In this document: positions 29,004-40,280 of the stretch, in pieces | How positions within the stretch are numbered: the stretch's first letter is position 1 | Layout: each line of letters opens with the position of its first letter | Assembly: GCA_937871785.1 (NCBI GenBank) | Contig: CALMON010000025.1 | Coordinates: 7,374-51,393, forward strand | From: an uncultured Granulicella sp. | GTDB lineage: Bacteria; Acidobacteriota; Terriglobia; Terriglobales; Acidobacteriaceae | Direction: 5' to 3' | DNA length: 44,020 nucleotides | Position numbers and translations under genes: made by a program | Notes under the pieces: generated by a model | Database searches by the model: none | What the model was told of the DNA's origin: nothing | What the model saw: only the letters and a program-made list of their open reading frames with translations

Positions 29004-29825
29004 CTATCGGGAGCGCCAGGTCAGGGTCGTCAAGGAAAAACGCCGGCAGCCACAGGTCTCCCCCGGCGTTGGCGCGGACGTGCTTGTGCACCGTTGAGAC
29101 CGGCTTTACGAGCTCCGCGTCTTCATTGGAATCCGTGATGTGCGCCGCGGTCAGGCGAGTCTCGGTCACCATGCCCGACGGAGCGTCAGCGCCGGCGAAA
29201 CGCACGGGCAGCGCCTCGGTGCGGCTCAGGTTCAGCAGGTTTACGCTGCGCTGCGGGCCGCCGGCAAACGCGAATACCTGCAACGTATGCGCGCCCGCAA
29301 GTTCGATCTCGTCGTTTGTGCTGAGCGGCTGGTTCCACGTCGGGTTCGCGCCGGAAACGCTCGTGCGCAGCATGGTGGGAGCACGGCCGCGTTGATCATC
29401 CCGAGCGCGAGGAAGCTGGGCCTGCGGCGGCCGGTGGCTCCGCCCATGTCGACGACCGCGCCCCAAAGCGGCGTGACCAGCGACTTGCCACCGCCTGCGG
29501 GCGTAAAACCGTTGCGGTACTCCGGCAGCGCGAAAAACGCCTGCGACGTGACGCCGAGGTCGCGCAGCATCAGCAGCATGTGGTCGGCCACGGCGAGACC
29601 CGCGCCGAGCGACGGCACCGTCCTATCGGGGTTGCGGAAGGTGAGATTGCGTAGCATCTGGCCGGAGTCGTACAAGCTTTGGCCGCTGAGATTGATGCCG
29701 AAGCGCTTGACGTGGGTGCGGAGCGGCTGCGGCTCGAGCGTGATCGTGGTGGTCTGGGCGTAAACAGAAACGGTAGCGACGAGGGAACTGAGCAGGGGAA
29801 GCGACCTGCGGATTCGGCTCCGCCG
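29004..29825 (-). pseudogene. Decayed secreted-protein gene (internal deletion, two frameshifts, lost start)
   Basis: Reading the minus strand from about 29820 gives a signal-peptide-like stretch (RSLPLLSSLVATVSVYAQ), then RFGINLSGQSLYDSGQMLRN. This resembles the start of a family of large secreted acidobacterial proteins. Soon after FRNP (near 29620) the text jumps to what looks like the C-terminal third (AVADHMLLMLRDLGV, PLWGAVVDMGG). A one-base frameshift at a GGG run near 29377 is needed to continue into TMLRTSVSGANPTWNQPLS...LFNLSRT-like sequence. A second at the AAAAA run near 29036 restores LPAFSLTTLTWRSR and a stop at 29004-29006. No start codon remains upstream, where a dispersed repeat sits. 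Family name uncertain. Confidence 0.65.
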
Positions 29826-31422: not shown

Positions 31423-32241
31423 ATGAGAACTTCCTCCAAAACCGGCGACACGCTTCCCATTCTGCTTGCGGGTGAGGTGCATGTCTGGCAGTTCGACGCA
31501 GCGGAGACCGGGCACATGCTCGCCGCCGCGGTCGCCTTGTTGCAGCCGGCGGAACTCGAACGCCGCGACCGCATGCGCGCCGGAGTGGCGCGGGACGAGT
31601 TTGCCCTCGGCCGCGCCTGCCTGCGCGTGCTGCTGGCGGAGGCTCTCGGCTGCTTCGCGGACGAGGTTCGGATCGCCGCTGGAGCCGACGGGAAACCGTT
31701 TGTGGCGGAAGCGCAGGCCGCCGGGCTCCACTTCAACGTGGCGCACTCCGCCGGTTGCGTGCTGATTGCGCTGTGCCGCGGCGCGCGGGTGGGCATTGAT
31801 GTAGAGTGCGTGGACCCCCACGTCGAAATCCTCGAGATCGCCCGCGCCAACTTTGCCCCCGGTGAAGTTCGCGCGATTGAAGCGGCGGGGAGCGCCCGAG
31901 CGGGCGTGCGCACGTTTTACGAGGTGTGGACCGGCAAGGAAGCCGTGCTGAAAGCGCATGGCACCGGCTTGCTGACGCCGCTCGACAGCTTCGACCTGAG
32001 GGCGCCGGGCCCGGCCGGCCTGGGAACGGGGGCGCGGGCTGGCGAAGAACAGGTGTGCCGCCTCCCATCCGGCGTCGGGTCTGACTCGTACCATCTGCAA
32101 ACCCTGCCGCTCGAAGAACCGTTTCTCGGGGCGCTTGCGGTTTCTGCGCCGGGGTTCCGGCTCAAATGGCACCGCCTGCCTGCGGAAGCGTTCGCCGCGC
32201 TTCTGGACAGGGCTCTGGCTCCTGCTGCCTGCGGCCGATAA
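31423..32241 (+). CDS. 4'-phosphopantetheinyl transferase, Sfp type
   Basis: 272 residues. Diagnostic motifs are FNVAHSAG (104-111), VGIDVECVD (123-131) with the Mg-binding Asp126 and Glu128, and FYEVWTGKEAVLKAHG (165-180) with Trp169, Lys172, Glu173 and Lys177. The family transfers 4'-phosphopantetheine from CoA to a Ser of carrier proteins of fatty-acid, polyketide or nonribosomal peptide synthesis. Size places it in the Sfp rather than the AcpS group. No carrier protein or synthase is encoded nearby, so its target is probably elsewhere. The ATG at 31423 lacks a clear ribosome binding site. Confidence 0.93.
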   Translation: MRTSSKTGDTLPILLAGEVHVWQFDAAETGHMLAAAVALLQPAELERRDRMRAGVARDEFALGRACLRVLLAEALGCFADEVRIAAGADGKPFVAEAQAAGLHFNVAHSAGCVLIALCRGARVGIDVECVDPHVEILEIARANFAPGEVRAIEAAGSARAGVRTFYEVWTGKEAVLKAHGTGLLTPLDSFDLRAPGPAGLGTGARAGEEQVCRLPSGVGSDSYHLQTLPLEEPFLGALAVSAPGFRLKWHRLPAEAFAALLDRALAPAACGR

Positions 32242-32457: not shown

Positions 32458-33903
32458 ATGATGCCGAACACTTTGCGAACGGTCGGGCTGTTTGGTTTGC
32501 CGATATCCGATGTGACGATGGCTGAAGCGGTGGATCATATCGCGGAGGCCATTGAAACGCGCTCGTCCTACCAGATCGCCACCGCAAACCTGGATTTTGC
32601 CCGCAACGCCCGCAAGGACGCCTTTTTGCACCAGGTAATCTGCGACTGCAACATGGTGCTGCCGGACGGCGCGCCCATGCTGTGGGCGGCGCGGCTGTTT
32701 CGTAAACCGCTCAAGGAGCGCGTTACCGGCGTGGACCTGGTGCCGGAGCTGGCGCGGCTTTCCGCCGAGCGCGGCTACACCATCTTCCTCCTCGGCTCAG
32801 AAGGCGCGAGCGCCTCGCGCGCCATCGCGGAGCTTGAGGCACAGCACCCCGGGGTACGCATCGTGGGGCGCTACCACCCCGAAAAGCAGTCGCTCGAGCG
32901 CATGGACGACGAAGAAATGCTGCGCCGCATCCATGAAGCCAAGCCCGATATTCTGCTCGTCGCGTTCGGCAACCCGAAGCAGGAGCTGTGGATCGACCGC
33001 AACCGCGAGCGCCTGATGGTGCCGGTCGCAATCGGTATCGGCGGCTCGCTCGATATGATCGGCGGCACCTTGCGCCGCGCTCCGAAATTTATTCAGAAGA
33101 TGCAGCTTGAATGGGCCTTTCGGATGCTGCAAGAGCCGGGACGCCTTTTTCCTCGCTACGCCGGCGACTTCCGCGCGTTGATGCGCCACTTGCCCATCGA
33201 GTTCATGGCGATGTGGAGCCAGCCGAAAGCCGCGGGTGTCTGGCCGATGGACGTGTCGTTTGAAGAAGGCGTTCGCGTCGTCCACATGGCTTCCGTGTTG
33301 AGTGGAGCGGCGTGCGGCTCCGTAATGGCGGAAATTCGCGCGGCGATTCACCTTGGGCAGCGCGTAGTGCTGGATATGACGCTGACGACGCGGCTCGAAG
33401 CCGACGGCGTCGGCTGCCTGCTTGAAGCACGCCGCACCATGATCGCCGCGCACCTGCCCTTGTGGATGGGCAACGTGAGCGAGCCGGTGCGCAAGGTCCT
33501 GTTTGCCGGCGGCCTGGTGCAGCACCTGCGCCTGGCCCCCACCGTGCTCGACGCCGTGCGGCTTTCCGGCATGCCCGAGCGCCGCAAGCGTCCCGTTTCC
33601 ATCACCGGCCTGCAGCGGCTGGCGACGCTGCTGCGCCGCCGGCCGCAGGTAGAACGCCGCAAGGCGACCCGGCCGCTGGCCTCGGGCGTGCAGGACCGCC
33701 GCGGCGTGCTGACGCCGCATGTTCCTGCCGCGCCCATTCCGCTTTCGGAAGCTTCCGCGCTTGCTCGCCGTGCGTTTACCCCGCATCGCGAAGCGAATTT
33801 CTCAGCTTCCGGCGTGCATTTGCTGCACATGCCCAAGCCTCCTGTTGCCGTCAAGGACACCCATGACCAGTGGAAGCGGCCGTCCGCGGCGTCCGGGTCG
33901 TAA
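32458..33903 (+). CDS. WecG/TagA/CpsF-family glycosyltransferase (GT26) with C-terminal STAS-like domain
   Basis: 481 residues. Residues ~8-245 are a complete GT26 enzyme: TANLDFARNAR (42-52), VLPDGAPMLWAARL (67-80) with Asp70, RVTGVDL (88-94), FLLGSEGASA, AFGNPKQELWI (169-179), IGIGGSLDMIGG and LEWAFRMLQEPGRLFPRY (218-234). The family transfers a sugar such as ManNAcA or glucose to a lipid-linked acceptor. Residues ~262-368 are extra: VVLDMTLTTRLEADGVGCLLEA and LWMGNVSEPVRKVLFAGGL resemble STAS (anti-sigma-factor antagonist) domains. The normal phospho-accepting Ser region reads EADGVG. A basic, Pro/Ala-rich tail of ~110 residues follows. First gene of a tight EPS operon (12 bases to the next). 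Confidence 0.88.
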   Translation: MMPNTLRTVGLFGLPISDVTMAEAVDHIAEAIETRSSYQIATANLDFARNARKDAFLHQVICDCNMVLPDGAPMLWAARLFRKPLKERVTGVDLVPELARLSAERGYTIFLLGSEGASASRAIAELEAQHPGVRIVGRYHPEKQSLERMDDEEMLRRIHEAKPDILLVAFGNPKQELWIDRNRERLMVPVAIGIGGSLDMIGGTLRRAPKFIQKMQLEWAFRMLQEPGRLFPRYAGDFRALMRHLPIEFMAMWSQPKAAGVWPMDVSFEEGVRVVHMASVLSGAACGSVMAEIRAAIHLGQRVVLDMTLTTRLEADGVGCLLEARRTMIAAHLPLWMGNVSEPVRKVLFAGGLVQHLRLAPTVLDAVRLSGMPERRKRPVSITGLQRLATLLRRRPQVERRKATRPLASGVQDRRGVLTPHVPAAPIPLSEASALARRAFTPHREANFSASGVHLLHMPKPPVAVKDTHDQWKRPSAASGS

Positions 33904-33915
33904 GCTGGAAGACGA

Positions 33916-35022
33916 ATGCACACTTTAGACAAGATCCTGCGTGGCGAAAAGAAACCGACGGCGAACGTCGGTTTCCGTCGTACCCTTTGGCGGGTCTCCC
34001 TCCTGCCTGCCGCCGCCCTGCTGCTGCTTCTGGTTCCGGGGGCGCGCGCGCAAGCCGGAGGCGCGCCAAACACGCCTCTGCTGCAGACCAGCCCCGCGCT
34101 CGCGATACGGCAGTTCGAACCCGACGCCAACGAGCCCTACCAGCTTGGCCGTGGCGACGCCATTTCGATTGACTTTGGCGGCCGCACCGAGCTGAGCAGC
34201 AAACAAATCATAGGCCCTGACGGCAAAGTGACGCTGCCGCTGGCCGGCTCAGTCGACGTAGCCGGGCAAACCCGCGAAGCGGCCGCGCAGACCATCCTCA
34301 CCGCCATGGCGCCCTACTACGCCAGCCTTTCGGCGACTGTTGGCGTCGAGAAATACAGTTCCAACCAGGTACTTTTGATGGGCGCGGTCGAGCACCCGGG
34401 CGTGCAAACCTTTGATCGCGCGCCCACGCTGCTGGAAGTGGTAGCGCGCGGCGGCGGCCTGCTGAGTGGCGGCAATCGTGGCTACGGCGGCGACGGTCCG
34501 GCGGGCTCGGCGTACAACGTAAACGCCACCCTGAAGCCTTCGGTCGGCGGCGTGCCTGAGCGCTGCGCCATTTACCGCGGCTCGGACAAGGTTCTCTGGG
34601 TCAACCTGAAGCAGCTTCTCGACAGCGGCGACGCGCTGGCCGACATCCGCCTGAAGCGCGACGACATCGTCTACGTGCCTTCGGGTGCGGAACGCTACAT
34701 TTCCGTCCTGGGCCAGGTGCAGCACCCCGGCGCGCTGCAGTTGGAAGACACCTCCACGCTGCCCAAGCTGATCGCGCTTTCGGGCGGCATCACGCCGCAG
34801 GCCGGCCGCAACCCGCAGATTCAGGTCATCCAGGCCTCCACAGGCAAGACCCGCGTCATCGCCTGGCACGACGTGCTGCAGCCCCATGCGCTCGACCTTT
34901 CGCTGCATTCGGGCGATATCGTTTACATCCCGCAGAGCGGGTTCAACAGCGTTTCCTACGCCATCGACAGGTTATCGCCGCTGGTGACCATGTTTACGGC
35001 CGCGGCCTTGTTTACCCGATAA
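33916..35022 (+). CDS. Polysaccharide export outer-membrane protein (Wza-like, SLBB)
   Basis: 368 residues from ATG 33916, with GGAAGA upstream. A signal peptide occupies about residues 22-46 (SLLPAAALLLLLVPGARAQA). It has a signal peptidase I type site and no lipobox, unlike E. coli Wza. The Poly_export domain begins YQLGRGDAISIDFGG (75-89) and IGPDGKVTLPLAGSVDVAG (99-117). Two SLBB-type repeats follow (VLLMGAVEHPGVQTF and ISVLGQVQHPGALQLE). Known role: octameric channel for export of capsular or exopolysaccharide, working with a Wzc-type protein, which is the next gene (18 bases). Confidence 0.93.
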   Translation: MHTLDKILRGEKKPTANVGFRRTLWRVSLLPAAALLLLLVPGARAQAGGAPNTPLLQTSPALAIRQFEPDANEPYQLGRGDAISIDFGGRTELSSKQIIGPDGKVTLPLAGSVDVAGQTREAAAQTILTAMAPYYASLSATVGVEKYSSNQVLLMGAVEHPGVQTFDRAPTLLEVVARGGGLLSGGNRGYGGDGPAGSAYNVNATLKPSVGGVPERCAIYRGSDKVLWVNLKQLLDSGDALADIRLKRDDIVYVPSGAERYISVLGQVQHPGALQLEDTSTLPKLIALSGGITPQAGRNPQIQVIQASTGKTRVIAWHDVLQPHALDLSLHSGDIVYIPQSGFNSVSYAIDRLSPLVTMFTAAALFTR

Positions 35023-35040: not shown

Positions 35041-38000
35041 ATGACCGGCAATGGCGATCGCAGCAACGGGAGCACGAAGGAACCTATGACGGTCGACGGT
35101 GGGCAGTTCGCAACGCAGGCTTCGCGCCCTGTTCCGGCCATCCGGCTGGATGCCGTGCGCAGCGTGCGGTTGCATCCCGTGCTGGCAGCGTCGGTCGCGG
35201 CGGTTACGTTCGCGGGCATTGTCGGCGTCGCGCTTACGCGCAAGCCGGTCTATAAAGCCGAAAGCCTGGTGTACGTCGAGCCCAGCACGGCGAAGCTGCT
35301 GAGCGACGGCACCGAAGGGCAATTCGATTCGCTTCGCTACGAGTCGTACCTGCAGCAGCAGATCCAGACCGTGCAGCGGCCGGACATCCTCGAGTCCGCC
35401 GTCAACAGCCTGCCTGCGGGCACCTGGCGCATGCCGGGAGAATCCGTGGCGAATGCCGCCGCGCGGCTGGGCAACGCGCTCAAGGTGGAGCGGCAGGGCA
35501 CCAGCTTTCAGGTGTCGATCGGCCTTACAGGAGCGAACCCGGTCGCGACGGCCAATACGGTAAACGCGGCGACGACGGCCTATCTGCAAAAAGGCCGCAA
35601 GGACGAAACCACCCGCACCGACGGACGCGTGCAACTGCTGACGGAAGAAAAAGACCGGCTGTCGACGGAACTGCAAACCGACCGCGCCGAGCAGGTGGCC
35701 CTGGGCAACACGCTTGGCGTTGCCAACCCCGTCGGGCTTACGGCCGACTCCGTCGATACGGAGCTGGCCGGCGTCCGCAGCGAGCTCGTCGCCGCACGCC
35801 AGGCGCACGATGTAGCGGCGGCGCAACTAGCCTCGGTGACCGGGCCGGGAAGCTCCGCGAGCGGCGGTCTGGCGGCTGTGGCCGACGAGAACAGCGCGGG
35901 CGACTCCGGCTTGAATGCGCTGAAAACGACCTTCAACCAGCGCCGCGCGGTGCTGGTCAGCCAGATGGCGGGCCTTACCCCGGCGAACCCGGTCTACAAG
36001 CAGGATCAGGCCGAGCTGGCCGACCTGGACGCGCAGCTTGCGGCGCGCTCCGCTCAGGTGGAGCAAACCTCTGCGCAGCATGTGCGCGACCGGCTGCGGC
36101 TGGAACTGCAGCGCACCGGCGAAGTGGAAGCGCGGCTGAACGGCGAGCTGAACCGCTCCACGGCGCTGGCCTCCGGGGCCGCGCCGAAGCTGCAGCGCGC
36201 TTCCGAGCTGGCCGCCGACATTGAACGCCTGCAAACGCGCTACGCCTCGGTCGACAATGCCCTGCGCGGTTTGCAACTGGAAGCCAACGGCCCGGGCAGC
36301 GTGCACCTTTCCGTACCCGCCGCGCCGCCCATGGGACCGGAACCAAGCCGCCGCAACCTCCTGCTGGCCGCCGCCCTTCCCGTAGCCATTCTGCTCGGTG
36401 TTCTGGCGGCCGTGTTCGCGCGCCGCCGCGCCGGCCTGCTTTACACGGTTGAGGACCTCGAGCCGTCGCTGGGCTTTGCGCCGCTCGGCACGATGCCTGC
36501 GTCGCACGGCTACAGCGATGCCGTGGCGGACGAGTCGCTGCTGCGACTGGCCGCGGGCCTCGAACGCACGCAGCGGCGCAGCGGCGCCCAGATATTCGTC
36601 CTTACGGCCGCAAGCGGCTCGACCGATCTCACCTTGTTTGCCGCGGCGCTCGAACGCATGTTGGGGCAACTTGGCTTCAGCACCCTGCTTCGCGACACGG
36701 GCAGCCTGCGCCGCGAGTGGGAAGCGGCTCCCGCGAACGCCGCAGAGCCGCAGGGACAACGGCCTGGTCTGGTAGCGCGGCAGGGTCTCGCTTCCCGCCA
36801 GGGTCTCGCCGCGCGGCTGGACGCGCTGAAGACGGAAGCCGACTTTGTGCTGCTCGACGCTCCTCCCCTGCTGCATTCCGCCGAAACCGAATACTTCATC
36901 TCCGCCGCGGACATGACGATTCTGCTGATCGAAAGCGGCGTGACTACCTGCCGCGAGCTCGACCCTTCCATGGAGCTGCTTCGCAAGCTGAAGGCCGGCG
37001 GACTCGCCGCAATCCTGCTGAATGCGCGGGAGGCTTCCGGGGTGAGCAGCCCGTTCCCGGTATCGCCGCGCCCCGCGGTTCGGATGGCGCAGAACCGCGA
37101 AAGCGACGCGCGCAGCACCGACCGCACCGCCCCAACATCGTTCGTTCCTGACTGGGCCTCGGAGCCAGCCGCCGCCGCTGAACCGGCTGTGCCGGCGACG
37201 GCCGCTGCCGAGCCGGCCATCGCGCCGACCGGTGTTTCGCCTGATTTCGTCCCGGCTGTGCCCGACCCTGCTATCGCCTACCAGGTCGCCGCTCCCACTA
37301 AGGTGCACGCGCCGGCAGATTCGACCGCCGGCACGGCTTTCGGCGACGTGGAGCCTTTGCGCGAGGCACACACTGACGCCGCGTCGCCGACGCCGGCCGA
37401 AAGCAAACCCGAAGCGCAACCGGCGGTTCAAACGTCAGCCATACCGCTTGCGGCGGCTCCCCTTCCGGCGGAGCTCGCTTCCATTGACGTGCCGCATGAT
37501 GAGACCGCGTCGCGGGAAAGCTTCGTATCGTTTCTGGAAATGGCAGCCACCATGCCGCCTCCTCCGGCCGAGATCGTCACAACGGCGCCTGCTTCCCCTT
37601 CGACGGCTCCCAGTGTTTCCGGAACAAGGACCGTGGCTGAATCTGCCGCTGGTGAGCCGAAAGCCATCCAGGCAGATATGCCTGATTCGGCTGTAGCCGC
37701 ACCGGCCGTTGCCAAAGCGGCCTCCGTTGCACCCGTCATCGCCGAGCCGATACCGGCCGAGCCGATTCTAGCCAGGCCGGCTTCCCTGGCCCTCGTCGCT
37801 CCTGAGGTCTCTTCCGCCGAGGTTCCGGTCGCCTCACTGGCCGAACCTGCACCGGCAGCCGGGGCGGCGACAGTGGTTCACTCGGCCCCCAGCGTCATCT
37901 TTTGGGAAGCGCAGATCCGCCACCGCCTGCCCGATCGTGCTTTCGCTCCCGCCGTATTGGCCGAGCCGCCGGCAAGCGTCGTTCCCGCCGTTGCCGAAGC

Positions 38001-38679
38001 ACATCCCGAGACCGCTTTCGGCTCGCCCGAAGTCGAGGCCGCGCCGGACGTTTCAACTGCCTTCAGCCGCTTCGCTTTTCCCCTTTCTTTGGCAGCCGTC
38101 ACGCCGGAAGCGGCTACCCCCTCGCTTGACACCCCCTCGGTCCAAGGCGAGCCCGTTCTTTGCGCAAGCGACGCCGAAACCGTTTCGCCTGCGGAACCGG
38201 TCACGCGTCGCGCGGCGGCTACAGTGGAGCCTCGACTGCTGCCTACCCCGGCCGATCGCCTGCGCTTGTCCCGAGACACACCCGTGCCCGCGCCCCGGCG
38301 GCCCTCGCTGCCTTCGGTGCCGTTTGCCCCGCAGCCCTCGTTACAGCCCCGTTTCGCCGGCAGCCTGCAGTCCGCTCCTGCGCTTGTGTGGGCGGAAAAC
38401 CGCCCTTCGCAGAACATGTCGGCCGAAGCGGTCGCCGAACGCATCGTCGGTCTCGGCCGCCAGGCGTCGACCTCCGCCGCCGCCGCACGGACGGCGCCGC
38501 AGCCCTCCCGGCCGCATGTGGTTCCGGCACGCGAGCCCGGCGTGGCCGGCAAGCGGCAGTGGGGCCTGCTCAGCCGCTTCGGCAAACCTGCAGAAGGTGC
38601 GGAGACTTTCAACGAGTTCGACCGCTTCGACTCCGGCAACCAGCACGAGCCTGCCCTGCGCGACCGGGCCGCCGGATAA
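35041..38679 (+). CDS. Wzc-like chain-length/tyrosine-kinase-like protein with degenerate P-loop and long disordered C-terminus
   Basis: 1212 residues from ATG 35041 (an ATG at 35086 with AAGGA upstream is possible). Residues ~38-66 hold the first membrane helix, followed by a Wzz-type periplasmic region with coiled coils (~190-410). RRNLLLAAALPVAILLGVLAAVFARRR-like sequence at 438-463 is the second helix. Residues ~515-662 have the BY-kinase fold pattern: IFVLTAASGSTDLTLFAAAL where Walker A should be, without GK(S/T), and FVLLDAPPLLHSAE as Walker B (602-615). The last ~540 residues are Ala/Pro/Glu-rich, low complexity, with almost no Tyr. The usual C-terminal Tyr cluster is absent. I infer a structural co-polymerase that has lost kinase activity. 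Its operon position after Wza supports an export role. Confidence 0.85.
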   Translation: MTGNGDRSNGSTKEPMTVDGGQFATQASRPVPAIRLDAVRSVRLHPVLAASVAAVTFAGIVGVALTRKPVYKAESLVYVEPSTAKLLSDGTEGQFDSLRYESYLQQQIQTVQRPDILESAVNSLPAGTWRMPGESVANAAARLGNALKVERQGTSFQVSIGLTGANPVATANTVNAATTAYLQKGRKDETTRTDGRVQLLTEEKDRLSTELQTDRAEQVALGNTLGVANPVGLTADSVDTELAGVRSELVAARQAHDVAAAQLASVTGPGSSASGGLAAVADENSAGDSGLNALKTTFNQRRAVLVSQMAGLTPANPVYKQDQAELADLDAQLAARSAQVEQTSAQHVRDRLRLELQRTGEVEARLNGELNRSTALASGAAPKLQRASELAADIERLQTRYASVDNALRGLQLEANGPGSVHLSVPAAPPMGPEPSRRNLLLAAALPVAILLGVLAAVFARRRAGLLYTVEDLEPSLGFAPLGTMPASHGYSDAVADESLLRLAAGLERTQRRSGAQIFVLTAASGSTDLTLFAAALERMLGQLGFSTLLRDTGSLRREWEAAPANAAEPQGQRPGLVARQGLASRQGLAARLDALKTEADFVLLDAPPLLHSAETEYFISAADMTILLIESGVTTCRELDPSMELLRKLKAGGLAAILLNAREASGVSSPFPVSPRPAVRMAQNRESDARSTDRTAPTSFVPDWASEPAAAAEPAVPATAAAEPAIAPTGVSPDFVPAVPDPAIAYQVAAPTKVHAPADSTAGTAFGDVEPLREAHTDAASPTPAESKPEAQPAVQTSAIPLAAAPLPAELASIDVPHDETASRESFVSFLEMAATMPPPPAEIVTTAPASPSTAPSVSGTRTVAESAAGEPKAIQADMPDSAVAAPAVAKAASVAPVIAEPIPAEPILARPASLALVAPEVSSAEVPVASLAEPAPAAGAATVVHSAPSVIFWEAQIRHRLPDRAFAPAVLAEPPASVVPAVAEAHPETAFGSPEVEAAPDVSTAFSRFAFPLSLAAVTPEAATPSLDTPSVQGEPVLCASDAETVSPAEPVTRRAAATVEPRLLPTPADRLRLSRDTPVPAPRRPSLPSVPFAPQPSLQPRFAGSLQSAPALVWAENRPSQNMSAEAVAERIVGLGRQASTSAAAARTAPQPSRPHVVPAREPGVAGKRQWGLLSRFGKPAEGAETFNEFDRFDSGNQHEPALRDRAAG

Positions 38680-38691
38680 AGGCGGACCGCT

Positions 38692-39246
38692 ATGTTCGAC
38701 CACATTCGCAGCGACTGGCGCGCCCACGATAGCAACTGGATGCGCCACGGCTTCTGGGCGTTGGTCGTTTACCGCTTCGGCAACTGGCGGTATGGCATCC
38801 GCTCCCGCGCGCTGCGTCTTCCGTTTTCATTTTTGTACAAGCTGATGAAGTTTTTCGCGGACTCGCTGCTCGGCATCGAGCTGCCTTGCGAAACCTTGAT
38901 CGGCCAGCGGCTTGTGATCGAGCATATCGGCGGGATCGTAATCAGCGGCGACGCGGTGTTTGGCGACGACTGCATCCTGCGCAACGGCGTCACGGTCGGC
39001 TTGCGCCACCGGCTGGAGCGCGGCTCGCCGGTGCTGGGAAATCGCGTCGATATCGGCGCGGGAGCCAAGCTGCTGGGGCCGATCCGTATTGGCGATGACG
39101 CCGCTATCGGTGCCAACGCGGTGGTGCTTTGCGACGTGCCGGCGGGCTGCAGCGCGGTAGGCATTCCCGCTCGCATCATCCCTCGCAAAAGAACCGCTGT
39201 CGTTCCCGCGGAGATGGGGGAGGGTACTTCGGCGGTGGCACAATGA
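38692..39246 (+). CDS. Hexapeptide-repeat acetyltransferase (CysE/EpsC-like)
   Basis: 184 residues from ATG 38692. An N-terminal helical part (~1-60) is followed by a left-handed beta-helix built of hexapeptide repeats: IGQRLVIEHIGGIVISGDAV with His78, GDDCILRNGVTVG (91-103), LGNRVDIGAGAKLLG, IRIGDDAAIGANAVV and a final AVGIPARIIPRK. This arrangement is that of serine O-acetyltransferase-like enzymes. In EPS operons such proteins usually acetylate the polysaccharide or its precursor. It lies 12 bases after the Wzc-like gene and overlaps the next gene by four bases. Confidence 0.88.
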   Translation: MFDHIRSDWRAHDSNWMRHGFWALVVYRFGNWRYGIRSRALRLPFSFLYKLMKFFADSLLGIELPCETLIGQRLVIEHIGGIVISGDAVFGDDCILRNGVTVGLRHRLERGSPVLGNRVDIGAGAKLLGPIRIGDDAAIGANAVVLCDVPAGCSAVGIPARIIPRKRTAVVPAEMGEGTSAVAQ

Positions 39247-40280
39247 TGAGCAACCCGGCCACGACCAGCGCGGCCACGCCGGCGTGCGTGTCGGTCGTCG
39301 TGATCGGCCGCAATGAAGGCGACCGCCTGCGCCGCTGCCTGCTTTCCGTGCAGGCCATGGCTCCGGGCGGGTTCCAGGTTGAGGTGATCTACGTCGATTC
39401 CGGCTCAACCGACGCAAGTGTCGCTCTTGCAGAGAGCCTCGGTGCCCGCGCGATCGCGCTCCATCCGGAGCACCCGACCGCGGCACTCGGCCGCAACGCC
39501 GGTTGGTGCGCGGCGCGTGGTGAGGTCGTGCTGTTTCTCGACGGCGACACCGAAGTCGACCCCCACTTTGTACGCGACGCCCTGCACCACTTCGCGGACC
39601 CGGCGGTCGCCGTAGTGTGGGGGCACAGGCGCGAAAAGCAACCCATCACCTCCGTCTACGACCGCGCTCTGGATCTCGACTGGGTCTACCCACCGGGCCC
39701 CGCACCGTTTTGCGGCGGCGACGCCTTATTCCGCCGCGACGTTCTTTCCGCGATGGATGGTTTCGACGCGACGCTGGTCGCCGGCGAAGAGCCGGAGCTT
39801 TGCGGACGCATTCTCGCTGCGGGCTTTATCGTTCTGCACATCGACCACGCGATGACGCTGCACGTTCTCGGCATCCGGAGCTTTGGCCAGTACTGGAAGC
39901 GGGCGACGCGCGCGGGCCATGCCTATGCGGAAGTCGCCGCGCGCTTTGCGGGCACCCCCGGCGGTCTGTGGAGCGCGGACCTCCGGCGCAACCGGGTGCG
40001 GGCCGGAATGCTGTGCGGCGCAGGGCTGCTAGGGCTGTGCGGAAGCGTGGCGGCGCGGTCGGCGTGGCCGCTGGCAGCGGCAGCGGGGCTGCTGGGGCTG
40101 CTCGCCGCGCGTACCGGATGGAAGGCGCGATGGAAGTCGCCTGACCGCGTGACGCTGCTGCTGTACGGGCTCCACTCGCAGGTCCAGCAATTGCCGATCG
40201 CGTGGGGGCAGGTGCAGTTTCTGCTGAACCGGCGACGCGGACGCCGCGCCGGCGTGTTCGAATACAAACGCCCGGCGTAG
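39243..40280 (+). CDS. Family 2 glycosyltransferase with C-terminal hydrophobic segment
   Basis: 345 residues from ATG 39243, overlapping the previous stop as ATGA. The GT-A fold is clear: VSVVVIGRNEGDRLRRCL (16-33), VDSGSTDAS (51-59), AALGRNAGWCAARGEVVLFL and LDGDTEVDP (99-107) carrying the metal-binding Asp. GDALFRRDVL and GEEPELCGR follow. A hydrophobic region at about 262-295 may anchor it to the membrane. It transfers a sugar from a nucleotide donor to the growing EPS repeat unit; donor and acceptor are unknown. Last gene of the EPS operon. Confidence 0.92.
   Translation: MMSNPATTSAATPACVSVVVIGRNEGDRLRRCLLSVQAMAPGGFQVEVIYVDSGSTDASVALAESLGARAIALHPEHPTAALGRNAGWCAARGEVVLFLDGDTEVDPHFVRDALHHFADPAVAVVWGHRREKQPITSVYDRALDLDWVYPPGPAPFCGGDALFRRDVLSAMDGFDATLVAGEEPELCGRILAAGFIVLHIDHAMTLHVLGIRSFGQYWKRATRAGHAYAEVAARFAGTPGGLWSADLRRNRVRAGMLCGAGLLGLCGSVAARSAWPLAAAAGLLGLLAARTGWKARWKSPDRVTLLLYGLHSQVQQLPIAWGQVQFLLNRRRGRRAGVFEYKRPA

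Follow-up and report, generated by a model that had tools for sequence, protein, structure and literature searches.

Glycosyltransferases of the WecB/TagA/CpsF family (GT26), TagA/TarA included, have in common a core, a catalytic Thr/Asp and Arg residues on a C-terminal appendage, and the roles of these residues in TagA have been described (PMC6493773). According to that article, TagA is active only with its appendage, a membrane-binding part that completes the active site and through which, it is proposed, an active monomer takes the place of an inactive dimer. SpoIIAA/RsbV proteins, which work with SpoIIAB/RsbW kinases and SpoIIE/RsbU phosphatases, have the same STAS fold as the domain described here, and the same families recur in a gene row of its Chloroflexota relatives. 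STAS proteins also bear on polysaccharides: in Vibrio fischeri, the STAS protein SypA and the response-regulator serine kinase/phosphatase SypE govern a polysaccharide locus (PMC4517449), SypA being described as having neither a known target nor a known mechanism (PMC8256260 and PMC4517449), whilst in Anabaena heterocyst polysaccharide synthesis depends on all4160 (PMC4390870).

A GT26 enzyme running on into a STAS domain

The window (the whole stretch of 44,020 nucleotides analysed here) carries at 32458..33903 (+) a gene for a GT26-STAS fusion protein of 481 aa (ORF list, Pfam), and the coordinates, strand and length given for it in the preliminary description are correct, as is the order of GT26 enzyme, STAS domain and basic tail. 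The WecG/TagA enzyme domain spans residues 8-253 (32479..33216, +), with a Glyco_tran_WecG match to residues 65-234 (Pfam PF03808; E 5.3e-59, 199.2 bits vs a cut-off of 27.4), an above-cut-off match to NCBIfam wecG_tagA_cpsF, a phmmer match to TagA (7mpk) and a VIA-align Z of 26.5 (rmsd 1.6-1.7) to the TagA/TarA crystal structures 5wfg and 7mpk. In the phmmer alignment to 7mpk, Thr42, Asp70 and Arg88 occupy the positions of TagA Thr37, Asp65 and Arg83, and Arg222 and Arg229 those of TagA Arg214 and Arg221; the latter two lie in the C-terminal appendage (residues about 206-253, 33073..33216, +; the alignment to TagA ends at residue 230). The catalytic Asp70 and Thr42 and the appendage Arg229 are thus all present, in keeping with GT26 membership. 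A short linker joins the appendage to the STAS domain (residues 260-373, 33235..33576, +), and this is followed by the basic tail (residues 374-481, 33577..33900, +), which is poorly conserved in the alignment and of low confidence (pLDDT <60). GC3 is 0.66 in the last 61 tail codons, against 0.81 in the enzyme, 0.81 in the STAS domain and 0.92 in the first part of the tail. No record in the plasmid search covered 80% of the query, one Rhodovulum plasmid match reaching residue 331.

The STAS domain was matched by Pfam PF01740 at residues 266-366 (E 6.4e-6, 26.3 bits vs a curated cut-off of 22.6) and, excised alone, at E 6.5e-7, whilst the NCBIfam ant_ant_sig match was weak and below cut-off (E 0.0036, 17.2 bits vs 53.45). 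A phmmer search of the excised domain against PDB sequences gave no match at E up to 10, so the single-sequence evidence is modest and it is the fold and the family that carry weight. AlphaFold2, supplied with an alignment of 10 relatives, predicted the STAS stretch with a pLDDT of about 87-95 per ten-residue block, the enzyme part also being of high confidence. With Foldseek, the predicted domain matched SpoIIAA (1tid_B, E 1.3e-5, TM 0.78 by target); with VIA-align it matched TM1442 (1vc1, Z 16.9) and SpoIIAA (1th8, Z 16.3), and further matches, all at Z about 12-17 and rmsd 1.7-3.5, included SLC26A11, RsbS, RsbV and STAS domains of the stressosome. The preliminary description had called the domain STAS and had named structure prediction as the check that might overturn the call; a STAS fold was predicted, with Z up to 16.9, and together with the Pfam match above cut-off it bears the call out. 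Fold and conservation across the family rule out a chance likeness to STAS, and the recurrence of the fusion across many genomes rules out a frameshift or assembly error. In close pairs of relatives, the only ones used as most pairs were saturated (distant STAS values about 1 or more), STAS dN/dS was 0.02 (L046/L053), 0.04 (L013/L080), 0.22 (L065/L073) and 0.43 (L051/L060), a constraint that was mostly, not always, weaker than that on the enzyme part.

The surrounding genes are those of a putative exopolysaccharide cluster. A Wzy-type polymerase/ligase (PF04932; 29916..31244, -) and a 4'-phosphopantetheinyl transferase (Pfam; 31423..32241, +) precede the fusion gene, the transferase directly upstream of it, and an EpsE/EpsY-like polysaccharide export protein with Poly_export and SLBB domains (Pfam, NCBIfam; 33916..35022, +) begins 12 bases after it. 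There follow a Wzz/EpsF-like chain-length protein, part of which weakly resembles a tyrosine kinase (35041..38679, +; Pfam and NCBIfam matches all under cut-off), an EpsC-like hexapeptide acetyltransferase (38692..39246, +; Pfam and NCBIfam, the EpsC match under its equivalog cut-off) and an EpsD-like glycosyltransferase (39243..40280, +; NCBIfam, under cut-off), the Eps names being those of NCBIfam equivalog models matched below their cut-offs. The predicted role of the enzyme is to glycosylate the lipid-linked primer on which this Wzy/Wzz/EpsE-type cluster would build its exopolysaccharide. Among 55 acidobacterial-clade loci, a number of them short contigs, 35 have relatives of the export and Wzz genes downstream, and the phosphopantetheinyl transferase cluster lies upstream in 8 of the 55, the window locus included.

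Two further neighbours were seen, one in the window and one at locus L043. In the window, 29122-29795 (-) looks like a decayed gene, the remnant of a 785-aa protein whose cluster accompanies 17 acidobacterial-clade loci; compared with the L035 protein, it matches just residues 2-69 and 582-749 and shows a frame change. A NusG-domain protein (L043 9202-9915, +) belongs to a cluster found in 11 acidobacterial-clade loci, at a median of 89 bases upstream of the fusion gene, and is perhaps an antiterminator for the polysaccharide operon.

Spread of the family and its likely single origin

Searching 299 genomes of the window's class gave a GT26 match in 150 (five candidates were scored in genomes with more). 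Among the matches listed, GT26 runs on into STAS in ten genomes, all of the window's family and including the window genome, one of the ten carrying two copies; an eleventh genome, G292, has a close relative which ends before the STAS domain. Besides the fusion, the window genome itself (3.95 Mb, 83% complete) gave two other GT26 matches, both of which stop short of the STAS part. Scanning 84,980 species genomes with a pattern yielded 282 relatives, and among the best 80, which were kept, 54 fell in an acidobacterial clade, 17 in a Chloroflexota clade (one titled 'uncultured bacterium') and 6 were titled Armatimonadota, the remainder being titled Deltaproteobacteria (one) or only 'bacterium' (two). 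Two of the 54 are titled Rhodanobacteraceae; they are nested among Acidobacteriaceae in the tree and are probably mis-binned.

When these 80, the query and four more proteins were scanned together, WecG was matched in 85 of 85 and STAS in 83 (E up to 0.01). The enzyme is followed by a pair of STAS domains in L104 and L160 of Chloroflexota (Pfam), in more proteins of that phylum by a local model, and also in L108 and L175, and several Armatimonadota proteins resemble this two-STAS form by length and sequence. The survey of architectures proposed in the preliminary description reveals a fusion recurrent in Acidobacteriota, Armatimonadota, Chloroflexota and a deltaproteobacterial lineage, often with two STAS domains. 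A maximum-likelihood tree built from only the enzyme part (109 rows, 24 of them picked by hand to add to the 85) grouped the fusions, the fusion label requiring 3 changes, against 22.7 in shuffles. L012 and L084, close relatives lacking STAS, are placed inside the acidobacterial clade and look like STAS losses. A single origin of the fusions is likely on this tree, short of proof because the plain L138 and L139 are not firmly placed in it.

The family shows some further variety. Some acidobacterial genomes have two GT26-STAS genes of different subclades (L046/L062, L053/L059 and L033/L072), the two copies lying about 20 kb apart in each of the first two pairs. L007, L008 and L010 share a conserved C-terminal stretch past STAS with the pattern V.VR.E..Q..C, which the window protein does not have. 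In the phylum of the deltaproteobacterial MAG, L176 (7446-8585, -) encodes a more distant GT26 with one STAS_2 match (40.4 bits vs 29.2), directly downstream of a sugar-transferase gene.

A kinase and phosphatase gene row in Chloroflexota relatives

We assembled 25 Chloroflexota fusion loci, 17 from the genome scan and 8 from phylum-sample genomes, the full GT26-STAS-STAS form being present in at least 12 of 301 genomes of that sample (E up to 1e-60; five candidates scored in larger sets). The usual order is a sugar transferase, GT26-STAS-STAS, a nucleotidyltransferase-sugar transferase fusion, a lone STAS, a SpoIIE phosphatase and a HATPase_c_2 kinase; a response regulator often ends the row, and the L104 phosphatase also has a GAF domain (Pfam). 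Lone STAS, SpoIIE and HATPase_c_2 kinase lie downstream on the same strand in 17 of the 25. In L094, L099, L105 and L112 the contig ends too early, whilst of the three genes L111 has just the kinase and L160-L162 lack all. By eye, the kinase N-box motif HExxxNIxxHAY is present in all 18 kinases found, and a Ser/Thr acceptor in all 19 lone STAS proteins found. Kinase identity is only 39-45% in four pairs comparing L104 with the other Chloroflexota subclade; the gene order is nonetheless kept.

As a control, 20 regions of 11-14 kb around plain Chloroflexota GT26 genes were chosen by hand, partly from the same genomes. All three module genes occurred together in none of these, vs 17 of the 21 fusion loci that offered enough sequence (regions of 7-21 kb). 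Kinase-type and STAS proteins were found in 5 of the 20 and HATPase only in 1, so HATPase and STAS neighbourhoods of GT26 do occur without fusion. The five are Chloroflexus-like genomes: in L188 (3168-4525), L187 and L194, HATPase-type and STAS proteins lie 1.6-3 kb from the plain GT26 gene, and two of three regions inspected have two HATPase proteins. It is possible that these regions represent a second link of STAS signalling to GT26, made without fusion.

L175 is from a further lineage, the phylum of the deltaproteobacterial MAG, where only 9 of 198 sampled genomes match (E up to 1e-70) and the two-STAS form is found in G309 and G795. Here the gene of a response regulator-SpoIIE-HATPase protein overlaps that of a lone STAS, and GT26-STAS-STAS lies 1.4 kb downstream; since DSAG stands in the lone STAS as well as in each STAS of the enzyme, the acceptor is doubtful. 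On sequence grounds, the gene content of most of the Chloroflexota loci is that of a partner-switching system, comprising STAS, an RsbW-type kinase and a SpoIIE-type phosphatase.

Acceptor position and partner genes in the window's lineage

Alignment to the DSS motifs of the Chloroflexota relatives puts Asp316 (codon 33403..33405, +) at the STAS acceptor position of the window protein, that of the phosphorylated Ser in SpoIIAA/RsbV-type STAS domains. Across the acidobacterial clade, where 58 of 59 rows have a residue at this position, it is Asp in 25, Ala in 17, Glu in 8, Asn, Ser and Thr in 2 each, and Gln and Val in 1 each, and the conserved Asp two before it is kept in 1 row. In the first STAS of 17 Chloroflexota proteins it is Ser in 10, Thr in 3, Ala in 3 and Arg in 1, with the preceding Asp in all 17; in six Armatimonadota rows the acceptor is Ser once and the Asp two before is present in six. 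The preliminary description had doubted control by phosphorylation, and rightly: Asp316 cannot accept phosphate, which rules out phosphorylation of the window STAS at the usual residue, and Ser/Thr is found in only 4 of 58 proteins of the clade. Compared with SpoIIAA/RsbV-type antagonists, the window STAS has no phosphorylatable Ser/Thr in a DSSG-like loop, and its ant_ant_sig match is under cut-off. The Asp or Glu of 33 of the 58 may mimic the phosphorylated state, but Ala in 17 of 58 argues against charge there being essential.

As simple gene calling missed the L098 and L101 kinases, partner genes were finally sought in all six frames with local profiles. Around 64 loci (the 55 of the acidobacterial clade, the 6 with Armatimonadota titles, L091, L093 and L108), this search turned up neither a kinase nor a phosphatase nor a lone STAS, with at least 5 kb on both sides available in 38 of the 55, and with a kinase model that, built without the two known HATPase proteins of G000, missed one of them; this check covered the kinase model only. 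The fused STAS was recovered in 63 of the 64, all but L084. A Pfam scan of 63 neighbour representatives lists 25 of 151 families, and the absence of kinases rests on the local profile models instead. At the window locus, six frames around the gene likewise gave no adjacent cognate kinase or phosphatase gene. The window genome, which is incomplete, has three STAS matches, namely the fusion protein, an RsbRD_N-STAS protein and another STAS; the latter two are encoded on contig C147, where HATPase and HATPase-SpoIIE proteins are their neighbours and complete a stressosome-type set; the genome has an RsbT-like protein.

A proposed switch at the enzyme and its alternatives

The appendage Arg residues are kept and STAS follows directly, so a protein docked on STAS would be in a good position to allow the active state or prevent it. 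We propose that the family arose as an enzyme whose STAS domain receives the signal of a partner switch. An RsbW-type kinase, in Chloroflexota that of the same gene row, would bind and phosphorylate the enzyme STAS, its docking blocking or permitting the membrane-bound, active form; a SpoIIE-type phosphatase would reverse the phosphorylation; and, in Chloroflexota, the lone STAS would compete for the kinase. In the window lineage the acceptor Ser is replaced, mostly by Asp/Glu or Ala, most likely leaving a phosphorylation-independent docking module. The domains, the fold, the cross-phylum family, the gene order and the motif loss were computed, and every binding, phosphorylation and activity step is our inference from them. 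For the partner switch count the STAS match in 83 of 85 proteins, the tree, the Chloroflexota row (17/25, none in 20 controls), L175 and the appendage Arg; against it count the 64 loci without partner genes, Asp316, the STAS-less L012 and L084, L160-L162, the 5 of 20 controls and the DSAG of L175. On balance, we give about even odds to the enzyme being the receiving end of a partner switch on polysaccharide initiation, with the window copy as a phosphorylation-blind derivative. The suggestion in the preliminary description that STAS ties initiation to signalling gains weight from Chloroflexota (acceptor in 13 of 17, module mostly in the row), and for the window protein it is still a guess.

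The domain might instead be a structural or oligomerising part, or a membrane aid acting with the basic tail, which sets the monomer-dimer balance without any signalling partner. This would fit the window protein with its basic tail, the acidobacterial copies near which the six-frame search found no partner genes, the 54 of 58 proteins missing the Ser/Thr, and the dimer-to-monomer change at the same appendage proposed to be needed for TagA activity (PMC6493773), but the Chloroflexota relatives mostly keep both acceptor residues and full module, and we consider it rather unlikely. Nor do we favour the acidobacterial STAS as a fading relic of little function: although the acceptor is lost, the domain is mostly less constrained than the enzyme and L012 and L084 lack it, the predicted fold is of high confidence, close-pair dN/dS is well below 1 and most of the clade keeps the domain, which makes decay improbable.

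Signals could also flow in reverse, the enzyme being a sensor whose STAS titrates an anti-sigma kinase and so informs transcription about polysaccharide synthesis. Binding to anti-sigma kinases is known for STAS domains with this fold (the fold matches include chains of SpoIIAA-SpoIIAB and RsbV-RsbW complexes) and the window genome has its stressosome-type set, but that set is on another contig, and no sigma factor appears among those neighbour clusters that were annotated; there is in our view only a slim chance of this. A similarly small chance attaches to STAS binding a carrier protein or small ligand, e.g. acyl carrier protein, thereby tying the enzyme to the supply of lipid or precursors. 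The YchM STAS, whose structure was determined in complex with ACP (3ny7), matches the predicted fold at Z 13.1, and a phosphopantetheinyl transferase precedes the window fusion; the YchM match is however generic to STAS, and the transferase is at only 8 of 55 loci, with Chloroflexota absent from its cluster. Taking the partner switch further, we entertain, at slightly less than even odds, a cross-phylum class of partner switches whose output is the enzyme itself and not a sigma factor, in which RsbW-type docking sets the membrane-active state of GT26-STAS(-STAS) proteins and which Acidobacteriaceae have rewired to work phosphorylation-free.

Comparison with known systems

Among the literature matches listed (open-access titles and abstract starts, subscription journals being mostly outside), no paper concerned GT26-STAS or a partner switch with a glycosyltransferase as output. 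How STAS governs polysaccharide production was an open question, and here STAS is covalently part of a polysaccharide-initiation enzyme, with the presumed kinase and phosphatase sharing its row in most Chloroflexota copies with enough sequence, which opens the question to purified proteins. The row in distant relatives suggests that cells switch polymer production directly at the enzyme. If true, this would be immediate post-translational control of polysaccharide initiation, and it suggests a way in which GT26 enzymes could be controlled at their membrane-triggered activation.

The TagA chain (7mpk) has 244 residues, and the window protein adds STAS and tail past the appendage. Compared with the SpoIIAA/RsbV systems, STAS is here inside an enzyme, the window protein has no acceptor Ser, and no sigma factor appears among the annotated neighbours. 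L175 resembles SypA/SypE in pairing a response regulator-SpoIIE-HATPase protein with a lone STAS; SypA, however, is a lone STAS whose target is unknown (PMC4517449), whereas in GT26-STAS the domain is fused to a glycosyltransferase. A review names all4160 as a glycosyltransferase with an N-terminal STAS (PMC8256260); GT26-STAS has the domain at the opposite end. The joining of STAS to a glycosyltransferase thus has precedent in all4160, and we regard GT26-STAS as a candidate variant form of partner switching, with the window gene as a derived member.
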